Source: an uncultured Ruminococcus sp. (GTDB lineage Bacteria; Bacillota; Clostridia; Oscillospirales; Ruminococcaceae). From it: a stretch of DNA of 64,000 nucleotides. Below, in pieces: positions 197 to 32,587 of this stretch. The notes under the pieces were generated by a model, which was not told where the DNA came from, made no database searches, and saw only the letters and a program-made list of their open reading frames with translations. The stretch is taken from positions 1 through 64,000 of the forward strand of contig CANQVK010000012.1 of NCBI GenBank assembly GCA_947627275.1, in the 5' to 3' direction. Position 1 is the stretch's first letter. Each line of letters opens with the position of its first letter. The position numbers and the translations under genes are program-made.

Positions 197-1253
197 TTAA
201 AAGCTATTCCACGGTAGTAATATGGTGCCTATCGGATTTGAGAACAGGTCGGTTAGATATTTTTCCACATCAATTCCGTTAGCCTATGCTGTTGAAATTA
301 TCGAATACATGGTAGCACTGCATTTTGCGCCACGCTCAGTATTGGTGAACAGTCGGTTCTTACGGCCGATGGTAAATGGTCTGATAGCATTTTCAGCACG
401 ATTGTTATCAATCGGAACATCTCCGTTTTCAAGGAACGTGTACAGATATTTCTTTTCATTATGAGTATAGCGGAATGCATCAACGAGTTTGTTCTTACCG
501 CTGACCTGAAGTTCTTCTGCCCATGCAAAGAAAGCATCGAGTAAAGGCTTGATCTTTACAAGACGCTGATTGTATCTTTCCTCAGCAGTTAGTTCAGTCA
601 GCAGTTTTTCTTCATGATAGATTCTGTTACAGAATTCTACTCCTTTGACCGCTGCCGATGTTGCGTATGCTGATTTATCTTTCGGCAATGCAGTTACCCA
701 GTATCTTCTGACATGTGTAAGGCAACCACATCTCCTGGTATTTTTGAGTGCATTGTATGCTGCATAACCGTCACATACAAGGAAACCATCAAATTCTCCA
801 AGGGATCTGACTGCATTTTCGCTTTTCCTTGTATGATGATAATCAAAAATGATATTACTGCGGTCATTGATTTTGCCATTACAGTATACCAACATTCTTG
901 AATCGGTCGTTGCCTTTCTGCCTTCTTCATGCAGTACCTGAAATACTGTTTCATCAGCATGGATTATTTTCTCTGATAACAGCTACTATGTGACGGCGGA
1001 TATGGAACTTCGCAGGAGTATATATCAGTTCATCATGTTTCTCTTCGCCGATCTCCATCATATCGAAACCGCATTTATCACACTTAGAATCATCTTCCTT
1101 ATGTAATACTTCTTCACCCGGTAATTCGCTCATACAGTCATCATGTGTTCGCTTTTTCTTGCGCTTATGCTCAGGGACAGTAATGCTGTTTTTAGAAGTT
1201 GCCTTTATTCTGCTCAGACATACTGCACACCGACCTTCGTTTTATGATACATA
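197..1253 (-). pseudogene. tnpC: IS66 transposase TnpC, multiply disrupted
   Basis: Remnant of the DDE transposase of IS66 elements, normally about 500 residues. Three lesions are visible. The N-terminal part (about 1253 to 980) starts abruptly and reads the typical KRTHDDCMSELPGEE zinc-finger segment up to FHIRRHIVAV. At about 980 the reading jumps out of frame into LSEKIIHADETVFQVL, so the central part of the protein is deleted. The intact stretch then runs to 284, where an in-frame TAG follows YSIISTA; homologous reading resumes behind it to position 197 (ending near LLPW). The HADET motif and the ENAIRPF segment are still readable. It cannot make a working transposase. Confidence 0.85.
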
Positions 1254-1302
1254 TTTTATAACATAAATCTACTGAAAAATCAAGTATTATCGCGGCTTTT
1301 TC

Positions 1303-1644
1303 TTAATACAATATGCTCGGTTTGCCTTCTCTGATAACTTTGGGCTGCTCGATTTTCAAACCCTCCAGCAGCCATCGCGTCTGCTGCGGTGTGAGTAGTA
1401 ATGCTTCCATTTCATTGCGCGACCATTGGAATCTTCCGTTATCAAGTCGTTTATACAGCAACAGAAAGACGTCATCTTCCCATAAAAGAACTTTCATACG
1501 ATCTCTGCGCCGACCGCAGAAAAGAAACGCACTGCTTGTGAACAAGTCAAGATGAAACTGTGCTTGTACAATTGTTGCAAGTCCGTCTATTGAACGCCGC
1601 AGGTCAGTGTACCATGTGACCAGATATACCTGCTTATCTATCAA
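1303..1644 (-). CDS. tnpB: IS66 accessory protein TnpB
   Basis: IS66 TnpB (Orf2) family, about 113 residues, needed for transposition of IS66 elements though its biochemical role is not settled. The family signature YLVTWYTDLRRSIDGLA near the N-terminus, FLFCGRRRDRMKVL in the middle and FQWSR near residue 73 are all present. The first usable codon seen is TTG at 1644; in-frame reading extends upstream (ILNDLL) without an ATG, and the position where relatives start reads ATA, so the original start codon may be lost. It lies between the tnpA and tnpC remnants and is probably not functional. Confidence 0.8.
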   Translation of the reverse strand: MIDKQVYLVTWYTDLRRSIDGLATIVQAQFHLDLFTSSAFLFCGRRRDRMKVLLWEDDVFLLLYKRLDNGRFQWSRNEMEALLLTPQQTRWLLEGLKIEQPKVIREGKPSILY

Positions 1645-2315: not shown

Positions 2316-5300
2316 TTATCTTCTCCGGAGTTGTGATTTTCTACGTTTGATGATTAATCCGCTCGCTGCGGGCATAAACAGGAACACAAATCCTATCAGA
2401 TAATAGTTTTTAGTTCCACTGCCGCCTGTCATGGGAAGCGTTGTTACCGGTTCGCTCGATGAGGAGTTTGTGACCGAGAGTGTTAATGGTGAACCGTTTA
2501 GAGTTGAGCCGTTGCCGATGTATTCTGTCGGGTAGTAAGTTGCGCCGTTGCCGTAGACAACGTTAATCGGTTCGTGAGTTTGCCCATCAACTTCCACGAT
2601 GTAGTAATGATACTCGTTACCGTTTGCATCTGTTTTGTCAAGATCAGAGAATTCATCCTGCCAATTGCCATTGGCGTCAAGCGTGATGAACTCTTCAAAA
2701 CTTGTGTCGATAGTTTCGTCCTCGGGAATCGTTACTGTAACCCCCGTCAGCGTAATGTTGATAATGAATTCCGTCGATGTATTATCATAATCGTCGGTAA
2801 CTTTTACCGTAGCTGTGCCGTCCTTGTCACGGGCAGTTACTTTTCCGTTTTGATCAATGGAAATTATATCAGGGCCTTCGGTAACTTCCCAAGTCAGATT
2901 GCCGATAGCGTTCTGGGCTGTGAGCTGTTGAGTTCCGCCCTTGTTCATCGCATTCGAGCCGCTTATCGCAAGATCGCCGCGAACATTTACTGTGATAGAT
3001 TTCGTCTGACCGTTTCTGCTGAATTTTACTGTAACGTTTTCAGCAGGATTTTCGCCTGCGGTTATTGTGTATTCGCCGTTGCTACCGGTAACGTTTACTC
3101 CGCTGTTCGGAGTGATTACAGGTTCTTCAACATTATCTGACGGGCTTATTGTGATATTTGCACTTCCACCACAACGAAGCTTTATTGGTTCTGTAACGGC
3201 AACACCATTTTGAGTTACCTCTAAAGCCTTGCCGACTACGTGTACCGTAGTTGTAACCGTCTTGCCGTCAGCTGTTGCCGAAACGATATAATCGCCGCAT
3301 GGAATACTGGTTATTGTAAATTTCGAACCGTCCGCAGTATAAGTTACACCATCAGTTTTGTTAATTGACCATTCAGCTGACATATTTGCTGTGATTTCAG
3401 CGGTTTCACCCTCTGTGATTGTGATTTCATTGCCTGATGTAATTTTTATGCCATCGGATTCGCAGTAGAAGATAATCGTTACATTAGCAGGAGATGGTTG
3501 TAACCACCATGGCTTAAAGATTAAACTGTCAACCTCAGCTATGTCGTATAAATCGTATTCAAACGTTGTGTTATTTTTTATTTCCCATTGGTTATTATTA
3601 TTATTACTCTTACTACCCGGTAAAATTATTTCATTGTTATCACACTTGATTTTTAGCATACCATTGGAATCATTGATAGTTCTATCAAATTGAATAGCAA
3701 TTTTTTTAACATTCTTTAGACTCACGTTCTTTTCAACTTGAACATTATATTCTGCTTTAATGGGAACTGTATGAATATCATATAAGGACGAATCTGGTAT
3801 TGTGGTGGTTGTGGTGGTTGTAGTAGTTGTTGTGGTCGTTGTTGTTGTGGTCGTTGTTGTTTCAGCTGGTTTGCTTGTTGAGGTTGTTTCTTCGTTACCG
3901 CTATCAGAATCAAAATAGAATTTAACTTTGTAAGCAGCAAAATCACCATAACCATTATTACTGAAAACTATATTTTTTATATTCTGATAATTTTCAGGAA
4001 CTTTAACATGCCATACACCACTTGTTGACGAATCTAATTTTGCAAAATAATTCCACGCATAATCTGTTGAAACTTGACTTGGATTACCATAAGATTTAGT
4101 ATACCAAATATCCATTGAAACAATAGTTTTACCAATTATGTCACTTGGAAGAACGTTTACTTCACCATCTACAAAATTTTTCTCCCAAATATACGAATTA
4201 CTCTCCTCTGCCGCCAAAATCCTCGGCGTATTCAATTTAACAGAACCCATGCTCAGCGTATTTATTGATGCGTCATTCTGTTCCTGAGAGGTTTGGGCTG
4301 TGGGTACGTTGTTTGAGTAGGTTAAGCCTGTGCCGTAGAAATGATAGAGTCCTGCGGCTGCGCCTACAAGTCCTGCGTTGTAGTCGCAAGCTACCTCGTT
4401 GCCAACATGGTCTTTACAGTTATCCTTATAGGTACTGTTGTCTCCGTTGCCGCCTGCGAGAGCGCCTACAATAACGTGGCTGTCTGTTTTATACACACCA
4501 TCCCAGTTATTCCAATTGCTCCAATTATCACCGGCTATGAGATTTGAAGCTGCCCTGTGATGAAGATTTTTAACTGAATTAGGTGCAAATCCTGATACAA
4601 AACAAGTTGATTTGTTGTTGTTGCTTGGAACACTATTACCTCCTAAAATATAATTCATCTGGTTCTTAGCCCAATTTGTATAATTAGGCTCACTGTGATG
4701 TTTATTATAAATAAGAGCTACAGTCTGAGCAAGTGCGTTATGTCTAACACTACCCCAGTTTTCACCACCAATCACATCAAATGTATTTCCCTTACACTCT
4801 GCATTCAAAAAATCTGTGACTTTTTTCTTAATATCGGAATCATTTGGGTCGATTCTTGTTGCATATACAGTAGCTGCGCCAAGAGTTGTATCTCCCCAGA
4901 CATGACCTCTGTCTTCAACGCTTAATGAATCAAGCTTAGTCTTACAAGCTGTTTTGTAGCTTTTCTCATTTGTTGCCAGATAAAGCCATGCTGCTGCCCA
5001 AGCCTGTTCGCTGTTGCATTCGTTATCAGCATAAAACGATACACTATATGTACTATTATGTTGTGTAGAAAATTTATACAATGCTTTAGCGTACTCAAGA
5101 TAATTTGAACTTTCAGGGGCATTCGGGAAATTCAAATAATACTGTGCCAATGCTGCCGCATAATCTGCCGCAATATTGCTTCCTCCATTAGTCGTCCATT
5201 CCAGTCTGCCTCGTTTATCATTCGGCTGAGATTCAGGGGGGCCCCAATAACTGTGATCTGTATTACCCTCGCCTTTTTCAACGAGAAGTCTGCTTACGTT

Positions 5301-8300
5301 TCCATTGCTCATTTCTGTTGAAGCCACGAAGAAATCACAGAAGTATTTCATAATGTCCTTATAATGATCTGTAAGTCCCAGATTATCAAATGAATCCTTG
5401 AACTCGTTGTAACTCCAACCAAGAGTTGAAGCACTGAATCCCTGCGGCAAACCGAACATAACATGGTCGCCGGCATCATGGAAACCGCCTTTAACTTCAT
5501 CGCTCGTATGGCAATCTTCTCGCCAACTGTATGCACTCGTTTCATTAACCTGATCGCCGCACATATTAGCGTCATAGAAGTAAAGCGAATACTGCAATAG
5601 TCTTGCGTAGTCATTCTGCTGAGTTATGCCATTATTCGTGTATACAGCAGAGTTATAATCAGGATAAGGATTACTCAAATTAGGATCAAAACTCGGCGAA
5701 GTAGCAGCCGTTGGCTTAATAGTGCGTATAAGTTTAAGGTAAATGTTTTCCGGACGTTGACTTGTATTGTTACCGTCAGCCCAGTTCTTTTTGACTATTA
5801 TTTTACCAACGTCTTGTGTATTGTTAATTGTGTAATTGGTTCCTTCATTTCCAGGAACTTCATCCCATGTCCAACCGTTCGGAACGTATGATTCAATTAC
5901 CTGATACTCCTTATTTGTAGGGAGTTTTTCAAATGTTTCACTATAATCAGGAGCTCTGAGTGTAAGAGTTTTGCCCGGAACGTCTGTGAATCCAGCACTG
6001 CTGCCTTTATCTCTCCATTGGAGTTTTACAGTAACACTCGGCGAACCTTCGGGAGAGTTATTTTCAGTTCCGTCAGAATTCAGCCACTTTTTATTTACCG
6101 TAATATTCGTAGTTTTAAGAGTATTGGTAATCGTTATAGTTCCGTTAGTAGAAAGACCTGACGTATTATTTTCAGAATATGAAATCTGATAATTACTGAC
6201 CGGATTTTCTACAACATAGTATTTATACCAGTTGCTTTCTTCATCTGCTCCGTTTTCATCAACAAGTCTCTCGAGTCCCGACCATGTTGCTGGTATCCAA
6301 TCGCCATTCGCATCAGGAGTAATTTTGGCTTCTTTTTTAAACTTTTCATCATCGACCCAATTTCCATCAACTTGTTTCTTTCTCTTAAGAGTTACAGAAA
6401 TCTCCGTGGGTCTAAACAACGGTTCAAAGCCTGTATCATCTGCCCATATCTTCTCGGCGGTAATTGATATATTAGTGCCGGGTTTTTGGTTGGGGATTTT
6501 GATGAGCGATGAATCACCGCCTGGAACAACATCAAGATTTAATAGCGGTGGTGCATCACTTGTCGTGGGATCTGGTGGAGTTGTTTCTTCGGGTTTTGAA
6601 ACAGGTTCGCTACAGTCGCCGAATTCCTTTGTACCAGATACCTCTTCCCACCAGTTTCCAAAAGCAGCAACACTATCACTCTCTCTTACAGTAGCTTTGA
6701 ATATAAATCCGTTTTTAGGAACAATTTTAACTCCTACTACATTGTTTTTATTCAAAGAACCGGTATTAATAAGGTCTCCGTTGAATGAAGTATCAGTTAT
6801 TGTTTGTGATTCTCCTGATCCATAATAGAAAGTTAAATCTAAAGTACCATTTAAAGTACTATTTGAATCATATTTCTGACATATAATATCCTGAATATTT
6901 TTGCCAGAACTACTTGAACCAGAAGCTCCACCTTCTTCACCATAGATTCTTACCTCTTTAACATCAACGCCATCATTATATGTTCCATTTTGAATTTTGA
7001 AACTATCAAAGCTGACATTATTAAGGTTATCTATTATAACTTTACCATCAGTTATAGTTGGCTTATCTCCATTAAATGGACCACCCAAAAGCTCAAGTGT
7101 TCCGCTTGTAGGACGATTAAGTTCAATCTCAATCTTTGTTACATTTGATACGCTTATTTTCTCATCTTTGGAATTTTGTGGGTATACTACAACTTCTTGA
7201 CCAGTTCCAATAGTAGTAGTATAATATGGCGGCGTACCAGACGGAATAATAGTTATTGAATTATTCGCTTCAACCTTGAAATTAAAATCCTGAGCCTGAT
7301 AACCACCGCTTGGAGGTGTGACCTCATGAAGAATATATGTACCAGGTTTCAAATAGCCGTTATTGACATATTGAGAATTATAAGCACCATTATTTTTAGG
7401 ATCTCTGAGAGTCGTAAACAAGTCGAAATCTCCAGTTTCCGGAATTTGGAATGTTCCTTCTAACGGATAAATCGGAGTTTTGTCCGATGCCTGAAGCTGG
7501 AATGTTGCACCGCCAAGTTGGCTAGAATAATCTGACTTCCATTTTTCAAGCTTGATCTTCGCACCACTGATTTTAATATCAGTCATGCTGATAGCGTAAT
7601 AAGCATTGTTTACTTTATCAACCTCATCGCCAGTTTTACCGTTAGCGTCGCACTTGTAAAGCTTACCATCTACTTTTTTAAAGTAAATCGGATCAGCCGG
7701 TTCATATCCTGGCGGTGAGTTGTTTTCTACAAAAGAATAAACCGATTCTTCTGTTAATTTATCAATATCAATAGGGTAAGAAGATGATGTCTCACTCCAT
7801 TCCCATTTGTCATCTTGTGGTTCGCTACCCTGCATCAAGCTAATATCCGCACCGGTAAGAGCATTACCAGCATTGTCAATCTTAGTGAAGAGCAGACCCG
7901 GCTTATTCTCGAAACTCAAATTATGCTCCGGCAATGGCATTACCATTACGCTGTCGCAGTCATAATAATATTTTGTGCCGTCAATGACTTTCGATGTTTT
8001 TAATGATGTAAGATCTTGGTCAATCGTTCTTGCCAACTCAATCTTCTTGATCTTCTTATACCGAATCGCTGTCGTTTCTGCATAAACCTGCGGCTCGTCA
8101 ACAGCTTCTTCCGCATAAATCTGCGGCACAAGTTCATCAACAGTCTCTTCCGCATAAGCCTGCGGTTCGTCAACAACATCTTCCGCAACGGTTTCCACAG
8201 ATGTCGACTCTTCCGAAGTTTCTTCAATCGCTGTCGTTGTAACTTCAGCCTGTTCATCAGTCTGCACAACGGATTCGGCTTCATCGGAAACTTCTGGAAT

Positions 8301-8870
8301 TTCTGCATTATCAGAATTTATCGAAATTTCGGGGATTGTCAGATTTTCTACCGAAACATTTGCAACCTCATTCTGATCTGCCTCAGTATTTGTTTCTTTA
8401 ATAAGTTCGTCATCGACGAATGAAGTATTAATCGTACCAAGAGCGGTATTCTGATTTGAATCAAGGTTTATCGCATATACATCTATAATGTTACCGCCAG
8501 CGTCTTTCATCACAATCTTTCGCTGCAACAAACCCTTTGATGTTTCGCCATAAGCATCTCTTGTTTGAAAGTACAGCGTTTCAAACGGATCAAATTTACC
8601 GATTGAATTGTTTTTCGATTCAATTGTAACTGTTACATCAACGACCTGCGGTACATATTTACTATCTCCGTCTATAATAATTACCAACACATACTCAGGA
8701 TCGATTACTTCTTTAACAGTAACTTTGTATTCCTTTTCAATACCAAGATAACCGGTAGGCGGAGATTCTTCTGCAATTGTATAATTTTTTATTATAGTAA
8801 GTTCTTCAGGACTAATTAGTTGCACCTGTAAGATCAACAGCCGACGGAATATTAACATATTCGGTTTCAT
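2316..8870 (-). CDS. LPXTG-anchored giant surface protein with GH9 cellulase, C-terminal part
   Basis: Probably the second, larger part of one gene with the frame at 8812-10527; real coding in this frame likely begins near 8813, where one extra T breaks the frame, and the ATG at 8870 has no ribosome site. Residues counted from 8870: end of a SpaA domain (20-60), acidic VDEPQ/YAEE repeats (about 200-270), two more SpaA-like domains (about 310-540), a beta module (about 545-700), Cna_B domains (about 830-930 and 930-1018), then half a Cna_B domain (1020-1052). The GH9 catalytic domain follows (about 1060-1540): HDAGD with D1132/D1135, the HHRAAS histidines near 1438 and the acid E1492 in NEVACDYNAG are intact, so it should cut beta-1,4-glucan. 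After it come a beta module, a poly-Thr linker (about 1670-1697), a second beta module, Ig-like repeats, the other half of the Cna_B domain (2038-2136), then LPMTG, a membrane helix and a basic tail, the sortase sorting signal. A neighbouring IS element and an AT-richer look suggest accessory DNA. Confidence 0.85.
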   Translation of the reverse strand: MKPNMLIFRRLLILQVQLISPEELTIIKNYTIAEESPPTGYLGIEKEYKVTVKEVIDPEYVLVIIIDGDSKYVPQVVDVTVTIESKNNSIGKFDPFETLYFQTRDAYGETSKGLLQRKIVMKDAGGNIIDVYAINLDSNQNTALGTINTSFVDDELIKETNTEADQNEVANVSVENLTIPEISINSDNAEIPEVSDEAESVVQTDEQAEVTTTAIEETSEESTSVETVAEDVVDEPQAYAEETVDELVPQIYAEEAVDEPQVYAETTAIRYKKIKKIELARTIDQDLTSLKTSKVIDGTKYYYDCDSVMVMPLPEHNLSFENKPGLLFTKIDNAGNALTGADISLMQGSEPQDDKWEWSETSSSYPIDIDKLTEESVYSFVENNSPPGYEPADPIYFKKVDGKLYKCDANGKTGDEVDKVNNAYYAISMTDIKISGAKIKLEKWKSDYSSQLGGATFQLQASDKTPIYPLEGTFQIPETGDFDLFTTLRDPKNNGAYNSQYVNNGYLKPGTYILHEVTPPSGGYQAQDFNFKVEANNSITIIPSGTPPYYTTTIGTGQEVVVYPQNSKDEKISVSNVTKIEIELNRPTSGTLELLGGPFNGDKPTITDGKVIIDNLNNVSFDSFKIQNGTYNDGVDVKEVRIYGEEGGASGSSSSGKNIQDIICQKYDSNSTLNGTLDLTFYYGSGESQTITDTSFNGDLINTGSLNKNNVVGVKIVPKNGFIFKATVRESDSVAAFGNWWEEVSGTKEFGDCSEPVSKPEETTPPDPTTSDAPPLLNLDVVPGGDSSLIKIPNQKPGTNISITAEKIWADDTGFEPLFRPTEISVTLKRKKQVDGNWVDDEKFKKEAKITPDANGDWIPATWSGLERLVDENGADEESNWYKYYVVENPVSNYQISYSENNTSGLSTNGTITITNTLKTTNITVNKKWLNSDGTENNSPEGSPSVTVKLQWRDKGSSAGFTDVPGKTLTLRAPDYSETFEKLPTNKEYQVIESYVPNGWTWDEVPGNEGTNYTINNTQDVGKIIVKKNWADGNNTSQRPENIYLKLIRTIKPTAATSPSFDPNLSNPYPDYNSAVYTNNGITQQNDYARLLQYSLYFYDANMCGDQVNETSAYSWREDCHTSDEVKGGFHDAGDHVMFGLPQGFSASTLGWSYNEFKDSFDNLGLTDHYKDIMKYFCDFFVASTEMSNGNVSRLLVEKGEGNTDHSYWGPPESQPNDKRGRLEWTTNGGSNIAADYAAALAQYYLNFPNAPESSNYLEYAKALYKFSTQHNSTYSVSFYADNECNSEQAWAAAWLYLATNEKSYKTACKTKLDSLSVEDRGHVWGDTTLGAATVYATRIDPNDSDIKKKVTDFLNAECKGNTFDVIGGENWGSVRHNALAQTVALIYNKHHSEPNYTNWAKNQMNYILGGNSVPSNNNKSTCFVSGFAPNSVKNLHHRAASNLIAGDNWSNWNNWDGVYKTDSHVIVGALAGGNGDNSTYKDNCKDHVGNEVACDYNAGLVGAAAGLYHFYGTGLTYSNNVPTAQTSQEQNDASINTLSMGSVKLNTPRILAAEESNSYIWEKNFVDGEVNVLPSDIIGKTIVSMDIWYTKSYGNPSQVSTDYAWNYFAKLDSSTSGVWHVKVPENYQNIKNIVFSNNGYGDFAAYKVKFYFDSDSGNEETTSTSKPAETTTTTTTTTTTTTTTTTTTTIPDSSLYDIHTVPIKAEYNVQVEKNVSLKNVKKIAIQFDRTINDSNGMLKIKCDNNEIILPGSKSNNNNNQWEIKNNTTFEYDLYDIAEVDSLIFKPWWLQPSPANVTIIFYCESDGIKITSGNEITITEGETAEITANMSAEWSINKTDGVTYTADGSKFTITSIPCGDYIVSATADGKTVTTTVHVVGKALEVTQNGVAVTEPIKLRCGGSANITISPSDNVEEPVITPNSGVNVTGSNGEYTITAGENPAENVTVKFSRNGQTKSITVNVRGDLAISGSNAMNKGGTQQLTAQNAIGNLTWEVTEGPDIISIDQNGKVTARDKDGTATVKVTDDYDNTSTEFIINITLTGVTVTIPEDETIDTSFEEFITLDANGNWQDEFSDLDKTDANGNEYHYYIVEVDGQTHEPINVVYGNGATYYPTEYIGNGSTLNGSPLTLSVTNSSSSEPVTTLPMTGGSGTKNYYLIGFVFLFMPAASGLIIKRRKSQLRRR

Positions 8871-10527
8871 TTGAAGAAGTCCATTTGTAAACAGGTTTGC
8901 CGGTGATGTCGTCAGTTACTTTAAATTTAGCGCCTGCAAGTTTACTTTCTGTACCTTTGATAAACTTATCAACAGGTACCGCATAGCCGGAGGTAGCACC
9001 GAGAATGTCGCTTGTTCCGCGATATGGTCTGTAACCAAATTCCATGCCGCCTTCAAACGACTTAGCTATTAACGCACCTGAAAGATGTCCGTCGCACTCA
9101 TCCGCAGAGAAAATGTCAGCATTAGGTGCAAAAATTGTACCATTAAAATTTCCTTTAAGTGAACTCTTTTTTGAAACATCCTGTTTACCCGCTTCATAGA
9201 AATTGTAAAGTATCTTTTCAGAAGCTAATCTGTTGTTTGTAGCTTTTACCTTATCATAAGCATTAGGAATATCGACACCTGCTGGTCTATTGGAAATTGG
9301 TAACGTTTTGCCCTTAGCACTAATATAAGTATTTGTCAATTTGGCGTCATTGCCAGTATGAAATTCATTTCCACCACAATTAACAACGATATTACATGTA
9401 GGACACCATGAACCATCAGGTTCATTATAATCGTTACCCTCTACTAATTTAAGTCCATCTCTCTTAACAGGCGGATTTACTGTATCTTCAAATTCATAAT
9501 ATATATCAGTTACATTGTCCGGCCAGTTATCAAGCTGAAAATAAACCGTATCACCCTCTTTAATGCTGCTTGGTATCTTAAAAGTAAGAGTACTTCCCTC
9601 TGGTTCAACATGAATGGAAGGTTTCTCGCTCAAGGCTTCTGAACGTTCACGCAACCATTTAAATGTTTCAGTAAAATCAATAAGAGGAGTGCCTGACTGC
9701 ATATATATTTGACTTGCTTCATCAGCATCAGATATAGGATTATTTTGAATCCAATCATTACTACCAGTCTTTATCAAATAATGATCATGAGTACCTGAAT
9801 ATCTACATTCGTTATTACTATCATTACGATGATAAGACTGATCAAAGTCACTAATTACAATTCGTTTAAAGAAGTCATCTTTATAATCTGCTGCTTTACC
9901 ACCACCGTTTTTTGTTCCGTACGGATCCACTCTTCCTATAAAACCATTAGAAATTACATGTGCAAAATCTGTAATTCCATCGTAATTATCAGTATTTTTT
10001 AAAGCTGTATTTGTTCCATAATCGCCTGCACCAATTTGATAGTTACCATCACTCGGCTTAACTATATTTCCACCAACAGCTACACGTCCTTCCGAGTCGG
10101 CATTTTTTGGTGTAAAATCACCTTCAAGGAATACGCAAAAGTCATAAGCAATGCCAAGAAAATATTCACGTTGTGCCGCTTCAATTATATCACTTGCAGT
10201 TTCACAACCATCAGCCCACGAATGAGAATCATCACCATCGCCAACTTTACCAATTAAAAGGTCTTTTACAGACATACTTGCAGGACTATATGTAGTGCCA
10301 TTTACTATATTTCCGTCTGCTTTTGTATAGTTAGTAAGCGATGTAGCATCACCATTAGCCGCTCTCGGAGTAACCCCGTCGCCTGTAGTACTGATTGCAG
10401 GTTCAATCAACGTGAAAGAAACCGTAAACGATATCAGTATCGACAGTGCCGTCAAAACAGCCAGATATTTTTTGTGTTTATTATAATCGGTCATATAAGA
10501 CTCAACGATTCTCTGCAATTCTTTCAC
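8812..10527 (-). CDS. giant surface protein, N-terminal part (choice-of-anchor A domain)
   Basis: First part of the surface protein continued at 2316-8870. From the GTG at 10527 it has 571 residues; this start is chosen because AAAGGGTG lies directly upstream, while the GTG at 10536 lies inside that ribosome site. A hydrophobic segment near residues 20-42 would be the export signal. From about residue 115 to 510 a choice-of-anchor A type domain is seen (FLEGDF, GRVAVGGNI, then GTIFAPNADI and LSGALIAKSFEGGMEFGYRPY), a module of adhesins and spore or surface proteins. The end starts a SpaA domain (LAGAKFKVTD) that is cut by TAG at 8814-8812 and continues in the next frame (SPEELTIIKNYTIAEESPPTGY). 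Joined, the protein would have about 2,740 residues. Confidence 0.8.
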   Translation of the reverse strand: MKELQRIVESYMTDYNKHKKYLAVLTALSILISFTVSFTLIEPAISTTGDGVTPRAANGDATSLTNYTKADGNIVNGTTYSPASMSVKDLLIGKVGDGDDSHSWADGCETASDIIEAAQREYFLGIAYDFCVFLEGDFTPKNADSEGRVAVGGNIVKPSDGNYQIGAGDYGTNTALKNTDNYDGITDFAHVISNGFIGRVDPYGTKNGGGKAADYKDDFFKRIVISDFDQSYHRNDSNNECRYSGTHDHYLIKTGSNDWIQNNPISDADEASQIYMQSGTPLIDFTETFKWLRERSEALSEKPSIHVEPEGSTLTFKIPSSIKEGDTVYFQLDNWPDNVTDIYYEFEDTVNPPVKRDGLKLVEGNDYNEPDGSWCPTCNIVVNCGGNEFHTGNDAKLTNTYISAKGKTLPISNRPAGVDIPNAYDKVKATNNRLASEKILYNFYEAGKQDVSKKSSLKGNFNGTIFAPNADIFSADECDGHLSGALIAKSFEGGMEFGYRPYRGTSDILGATSGYAVPVDKFIKGTESKLAGAKFKVTDDITGKPVYKWTSSNETEYVNIPSAVDLTGATN

Positions 10528-10536
10528 ATTTATCAC

Positions 10537-14369: not shown

Positions 14370-16040
14370 TCAGTCAAACGAGGGATGCTTTCCTGTAGAG
14401 GAGGCTGAATAGTATGCAAGTATCAGTGATGCGTCTGTAGAATCTATCGAGCCGTCATGGTTTACGTCAGCTGATTTTTTCTGTATGTCCGTAAGGACAG
14501 AGGGGCTGCCCGTTTGATTTTTGGCATATTCAATAAGAACGTCAGAAGCGTCGGAGGAGTCGATAGTGCCGTCGTTGTTGACATCGCCAAGGGTGTAGAC
14601 AGGCTCCGTAACAGGAGGCGTTGTAGCGGAAGTTTCCGTAGTAACAGTTGAAACGGTAGTTGTTGCGGTAGTTACAGGAGGAGCGGTAGTCTCTATCGGT
14701 TTTGCGGACTTGACGTTCAGGGTTATGGAAACGTTTACGTCGTTTGCGCAGTGAGCAGTCAAAGTAACAGTACCCTCGCTTTTCAAAGAAACGTCATAGC
14801 CGTTCTGACAGCTTGCGATGTCGTAATTTGAAGATTCGATCCACCATATCTGCGGAAATTGACCGTCAGAGCTTATATAGTTCAGCTTAACGGTATTTCC
14901 TGCGTAAAGCTCGCTTTCGTCAATGGGAGCTATGTAGTATTCCGAGGGTGACGGAGTAGTTGAAACGATGGGAGATTCGGTAGTATGAGTAGTTGTAGTC
15001 TGCGGTTCAGTTACGGTAGTCGAAGTAGTGGTGGTGTCAGTCGGAGCAGGGGAGACGGTAGTTGTCGTAGATGTTGATGTGGTCGATGTAGTTGATGTGG
15101 TAGATGTAGTCGATGTGGTCGATGTGGTCGATGTGGTAGATGTAGTTGATGTGGTAGATGTAGTTGATGTTGTCGATGTAGTAGATGTAGTTGATGTGGT
15201 AGATGTAGTCGATGTGGTCGATGTAGTCGATGTAGTCGATGTGGTAGATGTAGTCGATGTAGTTGATGTAGACGTTGGAACAGTGGGGGCAGTCGTTGCT
15301 GTAGTCTGCCCAAGATCGCTTATAACAATGATTTTTGTAGATGTATTGCCGTTTAAATCGGTTGCGGTAACTTTGTATTGACCCGGTTCAGATATAGTGT
15401 AGTTTACTCCCGTGCATTCGGAGTAAACGGTATCGTTGACTTCAAGCCGGCACAGCTCGTTTGATTCAATGTTGACAGTAACGCTTTGCCCGGGCTGTCG
15501 GCTTACAATTTTATCGGAGATCTCGGGAGCAATCGTATCGGAAGGATCTCTCGGGTCGTTGACCTCCACAACGTCTATCTGAGATTTGGCAGTTGTTCCC
15601 GAAGAAGCGGTTGCATAAAAAGTGTATACGCCGTTTTGGGCGAATTCGAGGTACAGCGAGTCTATCTGACCCGGTTCAAAGCCCACTATTTCGGGTGATG
15701 TGTAAGAGCCGTCCTCATGTTCAAGAACACAGCGGACGTTTTCTATTTTACCCGACAGAGGAGTTATGACAGCAGTATAGTCAGAGGAATCGAATTTTCC
15801 CGTGTCGTATTTTACATGAACGTCATAAATAGCCCTCCGACTGTTGCGGGCGTAGGTTTCCGATGAATTGTATATCCACCTGATGTATACGCCGTTTCTT
15901 CCTTTCATGCTTCCCGTGAGTGACGAGGCGGACTCGGAAACGGAGATATTAGGCGTATTTGAAGCTGCCGCATATAACGGCGAAACCGCTGTCAGAGCGC
16001 CGCATAGGAGCAGGCTGACTAATTTTCTGAAAACTTTCAT
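14370..16040 (-). CDS. secreted dockerin protein with long (TST)n linker
   Basis: A 556-residue exported protein. The signal peptide (MKVFRKLVSLLLCGALTAVS) ends near residue 26. The N-terminal 220 residues form two beta-rich modules that I do not recognise; the second, with PGQSVTVNIESNELCRLEVN and YKVTATDLNGNTS, looks Ig-like. Residues about 255-327 are almost pure Ser-Thr-Thr repeats, followed by a Thr/Pro-rich stretch, another small Ig-like module (about 370-445, with VTLTAHCAND) and a second Thr-rich linker. The C-terminal dockerin (about 485-556) has two calcium loops, DVNNDGTIDSSD and DVNHDGSIDSTD, so it should dock to a cohesin of the cellulosome. No catalytic domain is visible; a binding or structural subunit is possible. 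GGAGGT precedes the start. Confidence 0.8.
   Translation of the reverse strand: MKVFRKLVSLLLCGALTAVSPLYAAASNTPNISVSESASSLTGSMKGRNGVYIRWIYNSSETYARNSRRAIYDVHVKYDTGKFDSSDYTAVITPLSGKIENVRCVLEHEDGSYTSPEIVGFEPGQIDSLYLEFAQNGVYTFYATASSGTTAKSQIDVVEVNDPRDPSDTIAPEISDKIVSRQPGQSVTVNIESNELCRLEVNDTVYSECTGVNYTISEPGQYKVTATDLNGNTSTKIIVISDLGQTTATTAPTVPTSTSTTSTTSTTSTTSTTSTTSTTSTTSTTSTTSTTSTTSTTSTTSTTSTTSTTSTTSTTSTTSTTSTSTTTTVSPAPTDTTTTSTTVTEPQTTTTHTTESPIVSTTPSPSEYYIAPIDESELYAGNTVKLNYISSDGQFPQIWWIESSNYDIASCQNGYDVSLKSEGTVTLTAHCANDVNVSITLNVKSAKPIETTAPPVTTATTTVSTVTTETSATTPPVTEPVYTLGDVNNDGTIDSSDASDVLIEYAKNQTGSPSVLTDIQKKSADVNHDGSIDSTDASLILAYYSASSTGKHPSFD
15062..15272. repeat. 9-bp tandem repeats coding for the (TST)n linker
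   Basis: About 23 copies of a 9-base unit GATGTRGTN (plus strand) without interruption. Third bases vary (A, G, T, C) while the first two stay fixed. Such arrays can change length by slippage in whole codons, so linker length is expected to differ between strains. Confidence 0.85.
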
Positions 16041-29842: not shown

Positions 29843-32587
29843 ATGAAGAAATCAAAGCTGTTAAGCAGGTCTGCGGCTGTTGTTTCGGCTGCCGCTGTGC
29901 TTATGTCGTGCGTTCCGAGCTTATCGAACGCCGCCGTAATTACACCTGACAAGCCGAATAATTACCAGAATTTCGCCGAAGCGCTTCAGCTCGGACTGTG
30001 CTTTTACGACGCTAATAAGTGCGGCGATGAGGTTGCGGAGGACGGTTACTATTCATGGCGTGCGGATTGTCATGTCAAGGACGCCGAGATTCCGCTGAAA
30101 ACCATGGATCCCATGCCCACCGTCAACAAAGGCGACGGCGGTGAGGATGACGGCAAGGACGACGGTCTCGGCTCATATGAGGGAGAGGGCGACGGAGGCT
30201 CGAGCGCGGCGGAGGGTCTTTACGAGGGCGTGAACATGACGGCGGAGTTTATCGAGGAGAACCGCAAATACCTTGACCCCGACGGCAACGGTACTCTCGA
30301 TCTTACCGGCGGCTGGCACGACGCAGGCGACCATGTAAAATTCGGTCTCCCCGGAAGCTATTCCGCTTCAACTCTTGGCTGGGGATATTATGAGTTCCCT
30401 GAGTCCTACAAGGAGCTTGGTCTTGACAAGCATGTGGAGGACGAACTGCGCTGGATCAACGACTACTTCATGAAAGCCACTTTCATGGACGACGACGGAA
30501 AAGTCATCGCTTACTGCTACCAAGTAGGCGAAGGAAACAACGACCACAACTACTGGTGTCCTCCAGAATTGCAGGTGGACGGCACATACGTTGCATCCTC
30601 CTCATGCGGAGTAAAGCGTCCTGCCTACTTCGCCACAAGGGAAATGCCCGCCTCCGACCAGTGCGCCGGAGCGGCGGCGTCGCTGGCGGTAAACTACCTC
30701 AACTTCAAGGAAAGCGATCCCGAATATGCTGAGAAATGCCTGAAATACGCCCTTGCTCTTTACGAGTTTGCCGTTGAGACACACACCGAGGAATGGACGC
30801 CCGGCACAACGCCTACAGCAACAAGTCTCGGATATGACGGCGGCTTCTACACCTCCAGCTACGACTACGACGAGCTTGCATGGGCGGCTGTATGGCTGTA
30901 CTACTGCACCGACAATTACGACTATATCAACGACATCATTGCTGTTGACGAGAATACCACCAACGACAAGGGCGCGCATCCCTATGTCGGCTATCTGAAA
31001 CGTATCATGACCGATACCGGCAACTGCTGGCAGAACATCTGGGTCCACTGCTGGGACACTGTATGGGGCGGAGTTTTCGCAAAGCTTGCTCCTGTCACAA
31101 ACACGGCGCGCGACTGGTACATTTTCCGTTGGAATCTCGAATTCTGGTCGGGAGTTGACGAGGGAACTGCCAAAACTGCGAACTACTATGTTCCGACATC
31201 GACCCACAAGTATTTCGGCATGGACGATCTTATCTGGAATCAGACTATCGACCCTGCCACGATCCCTGATCTGCCGGAGAACGGCGGAAACTTCATTGCA
31301 AAGTCACCGGAGGGCTATGCAGTCGTAGCAGGCTACGGAAGCGCCCGCTACAATACCGCTGCCGGCTTGCAGGCTATGGTTTACGCTAAGGAAACAGGCG
31401 ATCTCATCTTTGCAAACTGGGCTAAGGATCAGATGGAGTATATCCTCGGCGACAATCCCATGGGCTACGCCTATATGGTAGGATATGAAAGCAACTTTGC
31501 TTCCCAGCCTCACCACCGTTCCTCGCACTGTTCGCCTACACAGAGCATGGAGGATCCCATAACTCAGGTACACACCCTTTGGGGCGCGCTGGTAGGCGGT
31601 CCCGACCTGGACGATTTCCATTCGGACATCACTAAGGATTACATTTACAACGAGGTCACGGACGACTACAACGCTGCGATCTGCGGCGACCTTGCAGGTC
31701 TTTACCACTACTTCGGCGCTGAGGGCAAGGAGCTTGAGGATAAGAACTATATAATCCCCGATTTCAATATGTCCGAGAACGCTATCGGCTACGATCAGAT
31801 CGACGAAAACGGCGATCCGCTCCCTACAGGTCTTTATATTTCGGGAGGAAAATCTCAGGAGACTGATGCCGGTATTCAGATAAAGATCGTTGTTCACAAC
31901 AGAACAGTTGATCCGCCTAAATTTGAAAGCAATCTTAAAGCAAGATACTATTTCAACATCGGCGAACAGCTTGAAAAGGGCGAGGACATCAGCTTTATTG
32001 AAACTCGCGTTGACTACGATCAGGAGAAAAGCTTTACTGACGGAAAGAATCAGGCGCTTATCTCCGAGCCTGTAAAGTACGATGATAAGGGAAATTATTA
32101 CATTGAAATTTCATGGCAGAACTGCGACTTCTACGGCAGCCGTGTTTATCAGTTCGGTCTGCTCAATAAAATGAACCCCGAAACCTACGATACTGTCTGG
32201 GATTCGGCAAACGACTACAGCTACAGCGATCTTGTAAGCTTTGAGGACGACAACGATGCAGCCGCAATTACCGATAAGATCACGCTTTATGCGGACGATA
32301 AGCTTGTATGGGGCGTTGAGCCGGACGGAACTTCTGCGGAAGATACTACAAGCGGTTCCGACCAAGGTAAGCTTGTTGGCGATGCGAACTGCGACGGCAA
32401 GGTCACTATTGCAGATTCAACGGCAATTCTTCAGGCTTTGGGAAATCCCGATAAGTACGGACTTTCAAAGCAGGGAACGCTCAATGCGGACTGCTGCAAC
32501 GTCGGCGACGGTGTTATCACAAGCGATGCGCTTGCAATTCAGAAGCTCGACGCAAAAGTGATAACTAAGCTGCCTATAAGCGAATAA
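29843..32587 (+). CDS. GH9-CBM3c-dockerin cellulase
   Basis: A 914-residue secreted endoglucanase. The signal peptide ends near residue 30 (SLSNAA). The GH9 (alpha/alpha)6 barrel follows; GGWHDAGDHVKFG gives D160 and D163, QPHHRSSH lies near 553, and NEVTDDYNA gives the acid E604. An acidic, Gly-rich insertion (about residues 85-145) splits the barrel start, between YSWRADCH and the HDAGD motif. A CBM3c-like module (about 640-835) should feed the chain into the active site, as in processive GH9 endoglucanases. The dockerin (about 843-914) reads GDANCDGKVTIAD and NVGDGVITSDA, so the enzyme should join a cellulosome. GGAAAGGAATT precedes the ATG; a terminator follows. Confidence 0.93.
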   Translation: MKKSKLLSRSAAVVSAAAVLMSCVPSLSNAAVITPDKPNNYQNFAEALQLGLCFYDANKCGDEVAEDGYYSWRADCHVKDAEIPLKTMDPMPTVNKGDGGEDDGKDDGLGSYEGEGDGGSSAAEGLYEGVNMTAEFIEENRKYLDPDGNGTLDLTGGWHDAGDHVKFGLPGSYSASTLGWGYYEFPESYKELGLDKHVEDELRWINDYFMKATFMDDDGKVIAYCYQVGEGNNDHNYWCPPELQVDGTYVASSSCGVKRPAYFATREMPASDQCAGAAASLAVNYLNFKESDPEYAEKCLKYALALYEFAVETHTEEWTPGTTPTATSLGYDGGFYTSSYDYDELAWAAVWLYYCTDNYDYINDIIAVDENTTNDKGAHPYVGYLKRIMTDTGNCWQNIWVHCWDTVWGGVFAKLAPVTNTARDWYIFRWNLEFWSGVDEGTAKTANYYVPTSTHKYFGMDDLIWNQTIDPATIPDLPENGGNFIAKSPEGYAVVAGYGSARYNTAAGLQAMVYAKETGDLIFANWAKDQMEYILGDNPMGYAYMVGYESNFASQPHHRSSHCSPTQSMEDPITQVHTLWGALVGGPDLDDFHSDITKDYIYNEVTDDYNAAICGDLAGLYHYFGAEGKELEDKNYIIPDFNMSENAIGYDQIDENGDPLPTGLYISGGKSQETDAGIQIKIVVHNRTVDPPKFESNLKARYYFNIGEQLEKGEDISFIETRVDYDQEKSFTDGKNQALISEPVKYDDKGNYYIEISWQNCDFYGSRVYQFGLLNKMNPETYDTVWDSANDYSYSDLVSFEDDNDAAAITDKITLYADDKLVWGVEPDGTSAEDTTSGSDQGKLVGDANCDGKVTIADSTAILQALGNPDKYGLSKQGTLNADCCNVGDGVITSDALAIQKLDAKVITKLPISE

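Follow-up and report, generated by a model that had tools for sequence, protein, structure and literature searches.

What is a cellulase doing in the middle of a cell-surface domain? The question is raised by a 64,000-nucleotide stretch of DNA from an uncultured gut Ruminococcus (assembly GCA_947627275.1, contig CANQVK010000012.1, positions 1 to 64,000 of the forward strand), referred to here as the window. A gene on its reverse strand encodes a GH9 catalytic domain standing between two distant pieces of a Cna_B domain, ahead of an LPMTG sortase motif. The initial annotation, made from the letters of the window, had proposed that neither piece is complete alone and that the two fold together around the enzyme, stapled by a Lys-Asn isopeptide bond. 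Our overall reading, which we hold to be probable, is that of a sortase-pilus tip subunit in which the split last Cna_B domain is closed by an isopeptide bond around a looped-out GH9 domain. The features that carry this reading, in window coordinates, are the following.

2316..8870, minus strand: 3' portion of the gene for the tip-type protein, an open reading frame (ORF) of 2184 amino acids (ORF listing and Pfam domain content)
5715..5819, minus strand: split Cna_B, first piece (strands A-B), residues about 1018-1052 (profiles, AlphaFold2)
5787..5789, minus strand: codon of Lys1028, the predicted isopeptide lysine (conservation)
4359..5609, minus strand: GH9 catalytic domain, residues 1088-1504 (Pfam)
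2454..2708, minus strand: split Cna_B, second piece (strands C-G), residues about 2055-2139 (profiles, AlphaFold2)
2592..2594, minus strand: codon of Glu2093, the predicted catalytic glutamate of the isopeptide bond (conservation)
2466..2468, minus strand: codon of Asn2135, the predicted isopeptide asparagine (conservation)
2424..2438, minus strand: LPMTG sortase motif (residue 2145), with the anchor domain at residues 2144-2178 (TIGR01167)

A probable single domain in two pieces

Against the Pfam Cna_B family (87 positions, cut-off 22.3 bits), residues 1015-1060 reach 19.0 bits over positions 3-31, which is below the cut-off; residues 2030-2145 reach 30.8 bits over positions 21-72, which is above it. 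Using a profile of our own, with 108 positions and made from intact Cna_B domains in this family of proteins, the first piece was matched at positions 4-34 (25.2 bits) and the second at 44-106 (36.8 bits). The joined pieces gave a single match over positions 4-106 with 64.0 bits, near the sum of the separate scores, and the pieces in reversed order gave 35.2 bits, the level of a single piece. Full coverage of this profile is reached only when the pieces are joined.

Complementary coverage was found in all 16 proteins scored, namely the window protein and 15 relatives having both pieces. The first pieces begin at profile positions 2-5 and the second pieces stop at 106-107, except in loci L170 and L173, where they stop at 79-80. 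Each of the 16 joined pairs gave one match with a score near the sum of both pieces, and each reversed pair the score of a single piece. Since the complementarity holds in every protein scored, chance is a very unlikely cause. Two independent domains can be rejected from the boundaries themselves, as first pieces stop at profile positions 31-37 and second pieces start at 44-54 throughout the 16 proteins except L166 (33 and 34), and no half with partner strands of its own, the case named in the initial annotation as fatal to its proposal, was seen. An assembly chimera is also rejected, the split being common to many genomes.

The CnaB fold has seven strands. In the AlphaFold2 model, the first piece forms two strands, 1021-1030 and 1042-1050 (block values of the predicted local distance difference test, pLDDT, 75-87), and the second forms five strands within 2060-2137 (block pLDDT 70-88), so that the two complement each other to seven. 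The proposal that the pieces are two halves of one Cna_B domain is thus supported by the profiles, and the predicted strands point the same way. The halves would pack into one domain.

Residues of the predicted bond

Lys1028, Glu2093 and Asn2135, together with W1030 and the LPMTG motif, were located where the initial annotation had placed them. They follow the layout of Cna_B domains, with Lys on the first strand, Glu in the middle and Asn on the last strand. An alignment of 40 split domains, 16 with GH9 and 24 with other inserts, has Lys at the first of these positions and Glu at the second in 40 of 40 (16/16 and 24/24 for both). The third is Asn in 37 and a gap in three (GH9, 14 of 16 with two gaps; other inserts, 23 of 24 with one gap). 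Among intact domains the counts are 150/150 for Lys, 150/150 for Glu and 145/150 for Asn, with five gaps, a conservation that is partly built in because the same profile selected these domains. Of the three positions, Lys belongs to the first piece alone, Glu and Asn to the second alone; therefore the bond, a spontaneous Lys1028-Asn2135 crosslink that we predict, would need both pieces.

A catalytic domain as cargo

The GH9 domain is full-length, matching PF00759 over positions 1-443 of 444 with 293.9 bits. D1132, D1135 and E1492, which we take to be the catalytic residues, align to the Cel9M motifs HDAGDH and EVALDYNAG. GH9 domains in this slot number 25 distinct examples, 21 from proteins with both pieces and four from proteins cut by contig ends (L039, L041, L168, L169). 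The Asp pair is retained in 25/25 and the acid Glu in 22/25 (22 of the 23 with a letter at this position), the others being two gaps and the Gly of L111. Most copies should therefore be enzymes, probably active on cellulose, with at least one that may serve for binding alone.

Two slot domains deviate from the rest. In L111:2627-10408, the slot GH9 (residues 1601-2048) has Gly at the acid Glu and reads DGEDH for DAGDH; perhaps it is a binding-only form. In Ruminococcus flavefaciens FD-1 (L211:4454-11884, residues 1462-1919; the same protein as L124), the slot GH9 is circularly permuted within the same split Cna_B slot, family positions 38-417 coming first and 1-38 following about 45 residues on. 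This single case fits a cargo whose ends are near each other.

One clade and other cargo

Compared with 125 genomes of the genus, residues 1010-2184 matched other large ORFs from the first piece onward. Alignment of the C-terminal piece gave matches in 90 of these genomes and in 60 of the 247 genomes of a family sample, many of the weaker ones being shorter ORFs of pilin size. From 62 retrieved stretches, 59 tip candidates were chosen (61 minus two plain GH9 ORFs of L046), each matching either GH9 or the last piece. A rule-based sorting found the last Cna_B split in 41 (17 with GH9, window included), intact in five and unsorted in 13; the unsorted include two GH9 tips truncated at contig ends (L039, L041) and two more in which the rule overlooked the pieces (L108, L109). 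On our own profile, first pieces are often weak alone, with less than 10 bits in 11 of the 41. Between the pieces lie 544-1255 residues in proteins with GH9 inserts and 133-1162 in those with other inserts; four of the 24 non-GH9 "split" cases, with inserts of just 133-152 residues, may be long loops, not cargo.

When set against 82 other GH9 domains, the 25 from the slot group in a single clade with support 0.992. The 82 came mostly from a peptide-pattern scan (the best 80 of 257 relatives) and are not a random sample. Among the GH9 ORFs in the 80 loci of that scan, 19 of 101 also bear Cna_B, and R. flavefaciens FD-1 is among the genomes. With 25 distinct GH9-bearing proteins of this kind, the arrangement is not an accident of one genome. 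The single clade makes one old insertion, retained since, the simplest reading, and several separate insertions of GH9 are unsupported because all 25 fall in it.

Other inserts were scanned with Pfam in 20 of the 24 cases. Over the cut-off, seven gave Big_2, two CBM77 (L142, L145), two CBM_4_9 (L135, L155) and nine nothing, and for six of the 20 no Pfam family matched with an E-value of 0.01 or lower. Some homologues, of the kind that the initial annotation had suggested looking for, do have their last Cna_B unbroken: clear cases are L148, L150 and L151, and in the window's own genome the last Cna_B of L139 is unbroken, covering Pfam positions 1-77 of 87 (27.4 bits in the genome search, over the cut-off; 20.2 bits in hmmscan, under it). 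Our own profile missed L139, which left it among the unsorted candidates.

Three further observations concern the family. Near the end of contig C32 the window's own genome carries a fragment of a second GH9-slot gene (L138:3857-4714), consisting of a GH9 end and the last Cna_B piece, broken off by unrelated sequence. Match patterns in L113 and L123 suggest more than one split Cna_B per tip protein, with shorter inserts. L166 (JAMPAJ010000001.1) carries a GH9-slot tip gene.

Pilus genes beside the relatives

Of 51 tip loci with over 2.5 kb of downstream sequence, 43 have an LPXTG protein of pilin size as their next ORF, and 43 have a sortase at most 4.5 kb away. For the GH9 tip loci with such room, both counts are 14 of 16, and these neighbours point to a pilus-tip subunit. 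Two pilus operons, L037 and L140 of the window's own genome, were run against Pfam; in each the pilin matches GramPos_pilinBB, SpaA and Gram_pos_anchor, the enzyme Sortase and a small third protein Cna_B. The L140 operon, with its pilin and sortase, lies on another contig than the window.

The window protein has the LPXTG-type motif and an anchor (TIGR01167, 16.2 bits against a cut-off of 15.9). Its own sequence and the order of genes around its relatives place it with the putative tip subunits of sortase-assembled Ruminococcus pili, a membership that we claim for the family of relatives and not for the window copy by itself.

The rest of the gene and its surroundings

The remaining features of the locus are listed here.

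8812..10536, minus strand: 5' portion of the same gene, read in a different frame, a 574-amino-acid ORF with a choice-of-anchor A / pAdhesive_15 domain
7257..7559, minus strand: SpaA-type domain, residues 438-538 (Pfam)
6111..6476, minus strand: intact Cna_B domain, residues about 799-920 (Pfam and own profile)
5808..6116, minus strand: intact Cna_B domain, residues about 919-1021 (own profile)
3912..4196, minus strand: beta-sandwich-like module 1, residues about 1559-1653, no Pfam family (AlphaFold2 strands)
3789..3908, minus strand: poly-threonine linker, residues about 1655-1694 (sequence, low pLDDT)
3459..3782, minus strand: beta-sandwich-like module 2, residues about 1697-1804 (AlphaFold2 strands)
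2751..3428, minus strand: Big-like domains, residues about 1815-2040 (weak Big_1 match below the cut-off, AlphaFold2 strands)
284..1644, minus strand: IS66-type transposase and TnpB, in place of most relatives' pilin gene

Pfam matched Cna_B in four stretches of the 2184-residue protein, and for module 1 gave low-complexity matches only, below the cut-off. The insertion described in the initial annotation is real, but the insert is more than a cellulase, since it comprises GH9, two beta-sandwich-like modules around a poly-threonine linker, and Big-like domains. Likewise, the ORF is open over its 2184 amino acids but is only the 3' part of a longer, frameshift-broken gene, the N-terminus of which is encoded by ORF 8812-10536 and by eye resembles the N-termini of relatives.

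Elsewhere in the window, a second GH9-like ORF of 914 amino acids with a dockerin-like tail lies at 29843-32587 on the plus strand, and the ORF at 14370-16040 on the minus strand combines a long Ser-Thr-Thr repeat with a dockerin-like end, both dockerin-like ends being judged by eye.

Proposed arrangement

A long insert, with GH9 as its largest domain, separates strands B and C of the last Cna_B domain. The first piece, with two strands and Lys1028, and the last piece, with five strands, Glu2093 and Asn2135, would fold together, and the bond would form spontaneously. Because the last strand comes last, we infer that the domain could close only after the whole insert is made. The Lys-Asn bond would then enclose the enzyme and its accessory modules in a covalent ring about 1,100 residues long. 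Through the LPxTG-type motif, sortase would attach the protein to the pilin shaft. The cellulase would thereby become a looped-out cargo at the far end of the fibre and could both grip and cut cellulose, with pulling force carried by the crosslinked stalk and bypassing the enzyme.

A broader proposal is that the B-C loop of the last tip Cna_B is a general, exchangeable cargo slot in Ruminococcus and its kin, in which GH9, CBM77 and CBM4/9 are covalently ringed; a cellulase on a force-bearing fibre tip would then be a natural SpyRing and an added route beside cellulosomes and free enzymes. We lean towards this proposal by a small measure.

Cellulose attachment by rumen Ruminococcus is attributed in two papers to cellulosome scaffoldins with CttA and to type IV pili (PMC4081043, PMC3672088). 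A cellulase-tipped sortase pilus, if real, would unite grip and cut in one molecule and provide a natural case of an enzyme closed in an isopeptide ring. Natural variants are at hand: a form lacking the acid Glu, a circular permutant and proteins with other cargo. Tests are feasible in a named organism, since the studied strain R. flavefaciens FD-1 has such a protein.

Alternative explanations

Several points weigh against the overall reading. The joined match of L170 and L173 (2 of 16) ends early, at profile 79-80. A structure search with the model of L161, a short relative with 691 residues from its first to its last piece, gave, among the 50 matches listed, only GH9 and other helical-barrel enzymes and no Cna_B. 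Neither pilin nor sortase neighbours were found at L038 and L043, two of the 16 GH9 tips with room. The conservation seen in intact domains is to some degree circular, as said above, and the isopeptide bond is a prediction. The acid Glu is lost in L111, where binding perhaps outweighs cutting. Finally, a frameshift cuts the window copy from its start, and an IS66 element, not a pilin gene, adjoins it.

A first alternative is that the window copy is a decaying pseudogene and the arrangement idle in this strain, which would be compatible with our reading of the family. The start of the protein lies in the upstream ORF, parted from the rest at 8812-8870, where two frames of one gene overlap; the relatives examined read the choice-of-anchor A part and the remainder in one frame. 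Downstream, where most relatives have their pilin, come the IS66 element and then the contig end, with no adjacent backbone pilin and sortase, and the genome's second GH9-slot gene is only a fragment. Against decay, the 2184 remaining codons are open and the catalytic and bond residues are retained. The break may be a frameshift or an assembly error, and several relatives are uninterrupted; the 60 bases ahead of the first frame's stop hold no run of more than three identical bases. We give decay a real but less than even chance. With its frameshift and no pilin neighbour, this copy may have ceased to work.

According to a second alternative, the split domain crosslinks but the protein is a cellulose-gripping adhesin in which GH9 mainly binds and hydrolysis is incidental. 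The other named cargo of the slot is binding or structural (CBM77, CBM4/9, Big_2), L111 carries a GH9 without the acid Glu, and the known cargo of such domains is described in a recent survey as usually isopeptide or adhesion domains (PMC12617251). A pure adhesin would have no need of the Asp pair kept in all 25 slot domains, nor of the Glu kept in 22 of the 23 with a residue at that position, and we consider this explanation unlikely.

Improbable, in our estimate, is a mere domain insertion in which the halves fold together without an isopeptide bond. A bond is invisible from sequence; in the 40 split domains, however, Lys and Glu are invariant and Asn is never swapped for another residue. 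That the pieces are separate remnants or independent domains, resembling Cna_B halves by chance or as recombination debris, is very improbable indeed, for although the window's first piece alone is below the Pfam cut-off and 11 of 41 first pieces are weak on our own profile, the last Cna_B is split in 41 of 59 tip candidates (selected by a last-piece or GH9 match) and complementarity holds in 16 of 16.

Comparison with known systems

According to a 2025 survey, both Cna folds accept domain insertions in their loops, the inserted domains being mostly isopeptide or adhesion domains (PMC12617251). In RrgA, a protein of the pneumococcal pilus tip for which the names "Jo" and "In" are used, the D2 domain is split by D3 and closed by Lys191-Asn695; it resembles the present protein as a pilus-tip protein in which two sequence-distant halves make one domain bonded across an inserted functional domain (PMC5333627). 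In contrast, D2 of RrgA is CnaA-like (PMC12617251) and has a catalytic Asp600, and its insert is a vWF-type (von Willebrand factor) adhesion domain (PMC7835359), not an enzyme. The same paper describes Mfa5, a Porphyromonas fimbrial tip protein, with a vWF domain between strands B and C and Lys111-Asn518 across it, thus in the same loop as here (PMC7835359). Mfa5 differs in its CnaA-like domain, its adhesion cargo and its Gram-negative fimbria.

In Cpa/Spy0125, the tip adhesin of Group A Streptococcus, the insert is a thioester domain. Its CnaB-like domain has a large domain between the bond residues, according to the survey (PMC12617251), and the bonds are given as K297-D595 and K610-N715 (PMC7900414). 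It differs from the present protein in that its Lys-Asp bond spans about 300 residues, against about 1,000 here with GH9 and further modules. With RrgA, Mfa5 and Cpa/Spy0125 as precedents, the insertion plan itself is already known; what sets the present case apart is that the cargo is a hydrolase and the organism degrades cellulose.

Among GH9 enzymes, the slot domain resembles Cel9M-type endoglucanases in its full catalytic domain and retained catalytic residues; the descriptions of the solved GH9 enzymes compared mention no insertion in an isopeptide domain. Among titles and abstract openings in open-licence PMC, no report was found of a hydrolase placed within a Cna_B domain or at the tip of a sortase pilus, and the word Cna is absent from the main texts of PMC2721979 (the FD-1 genome), PMC4081043, PMC3672088 and PMC11557425.

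Engineered systems offer a further likeness. In SpyRing and SnoopRing, a split isopeptide domain has its two parts on either side of an enzyme and closes it into a ring, an arrangement that engineers in 2016 called not known in nature (PMC4748275). Those rings were engineered for heat resilience, with SpyTag and SpyCatcher flanking the enzyme, whereas the split here is in the B-C loop. As a natural counterpart of SpyRing, a hydrolase as the cargo of a split isopeptide tip domain appears to be new.

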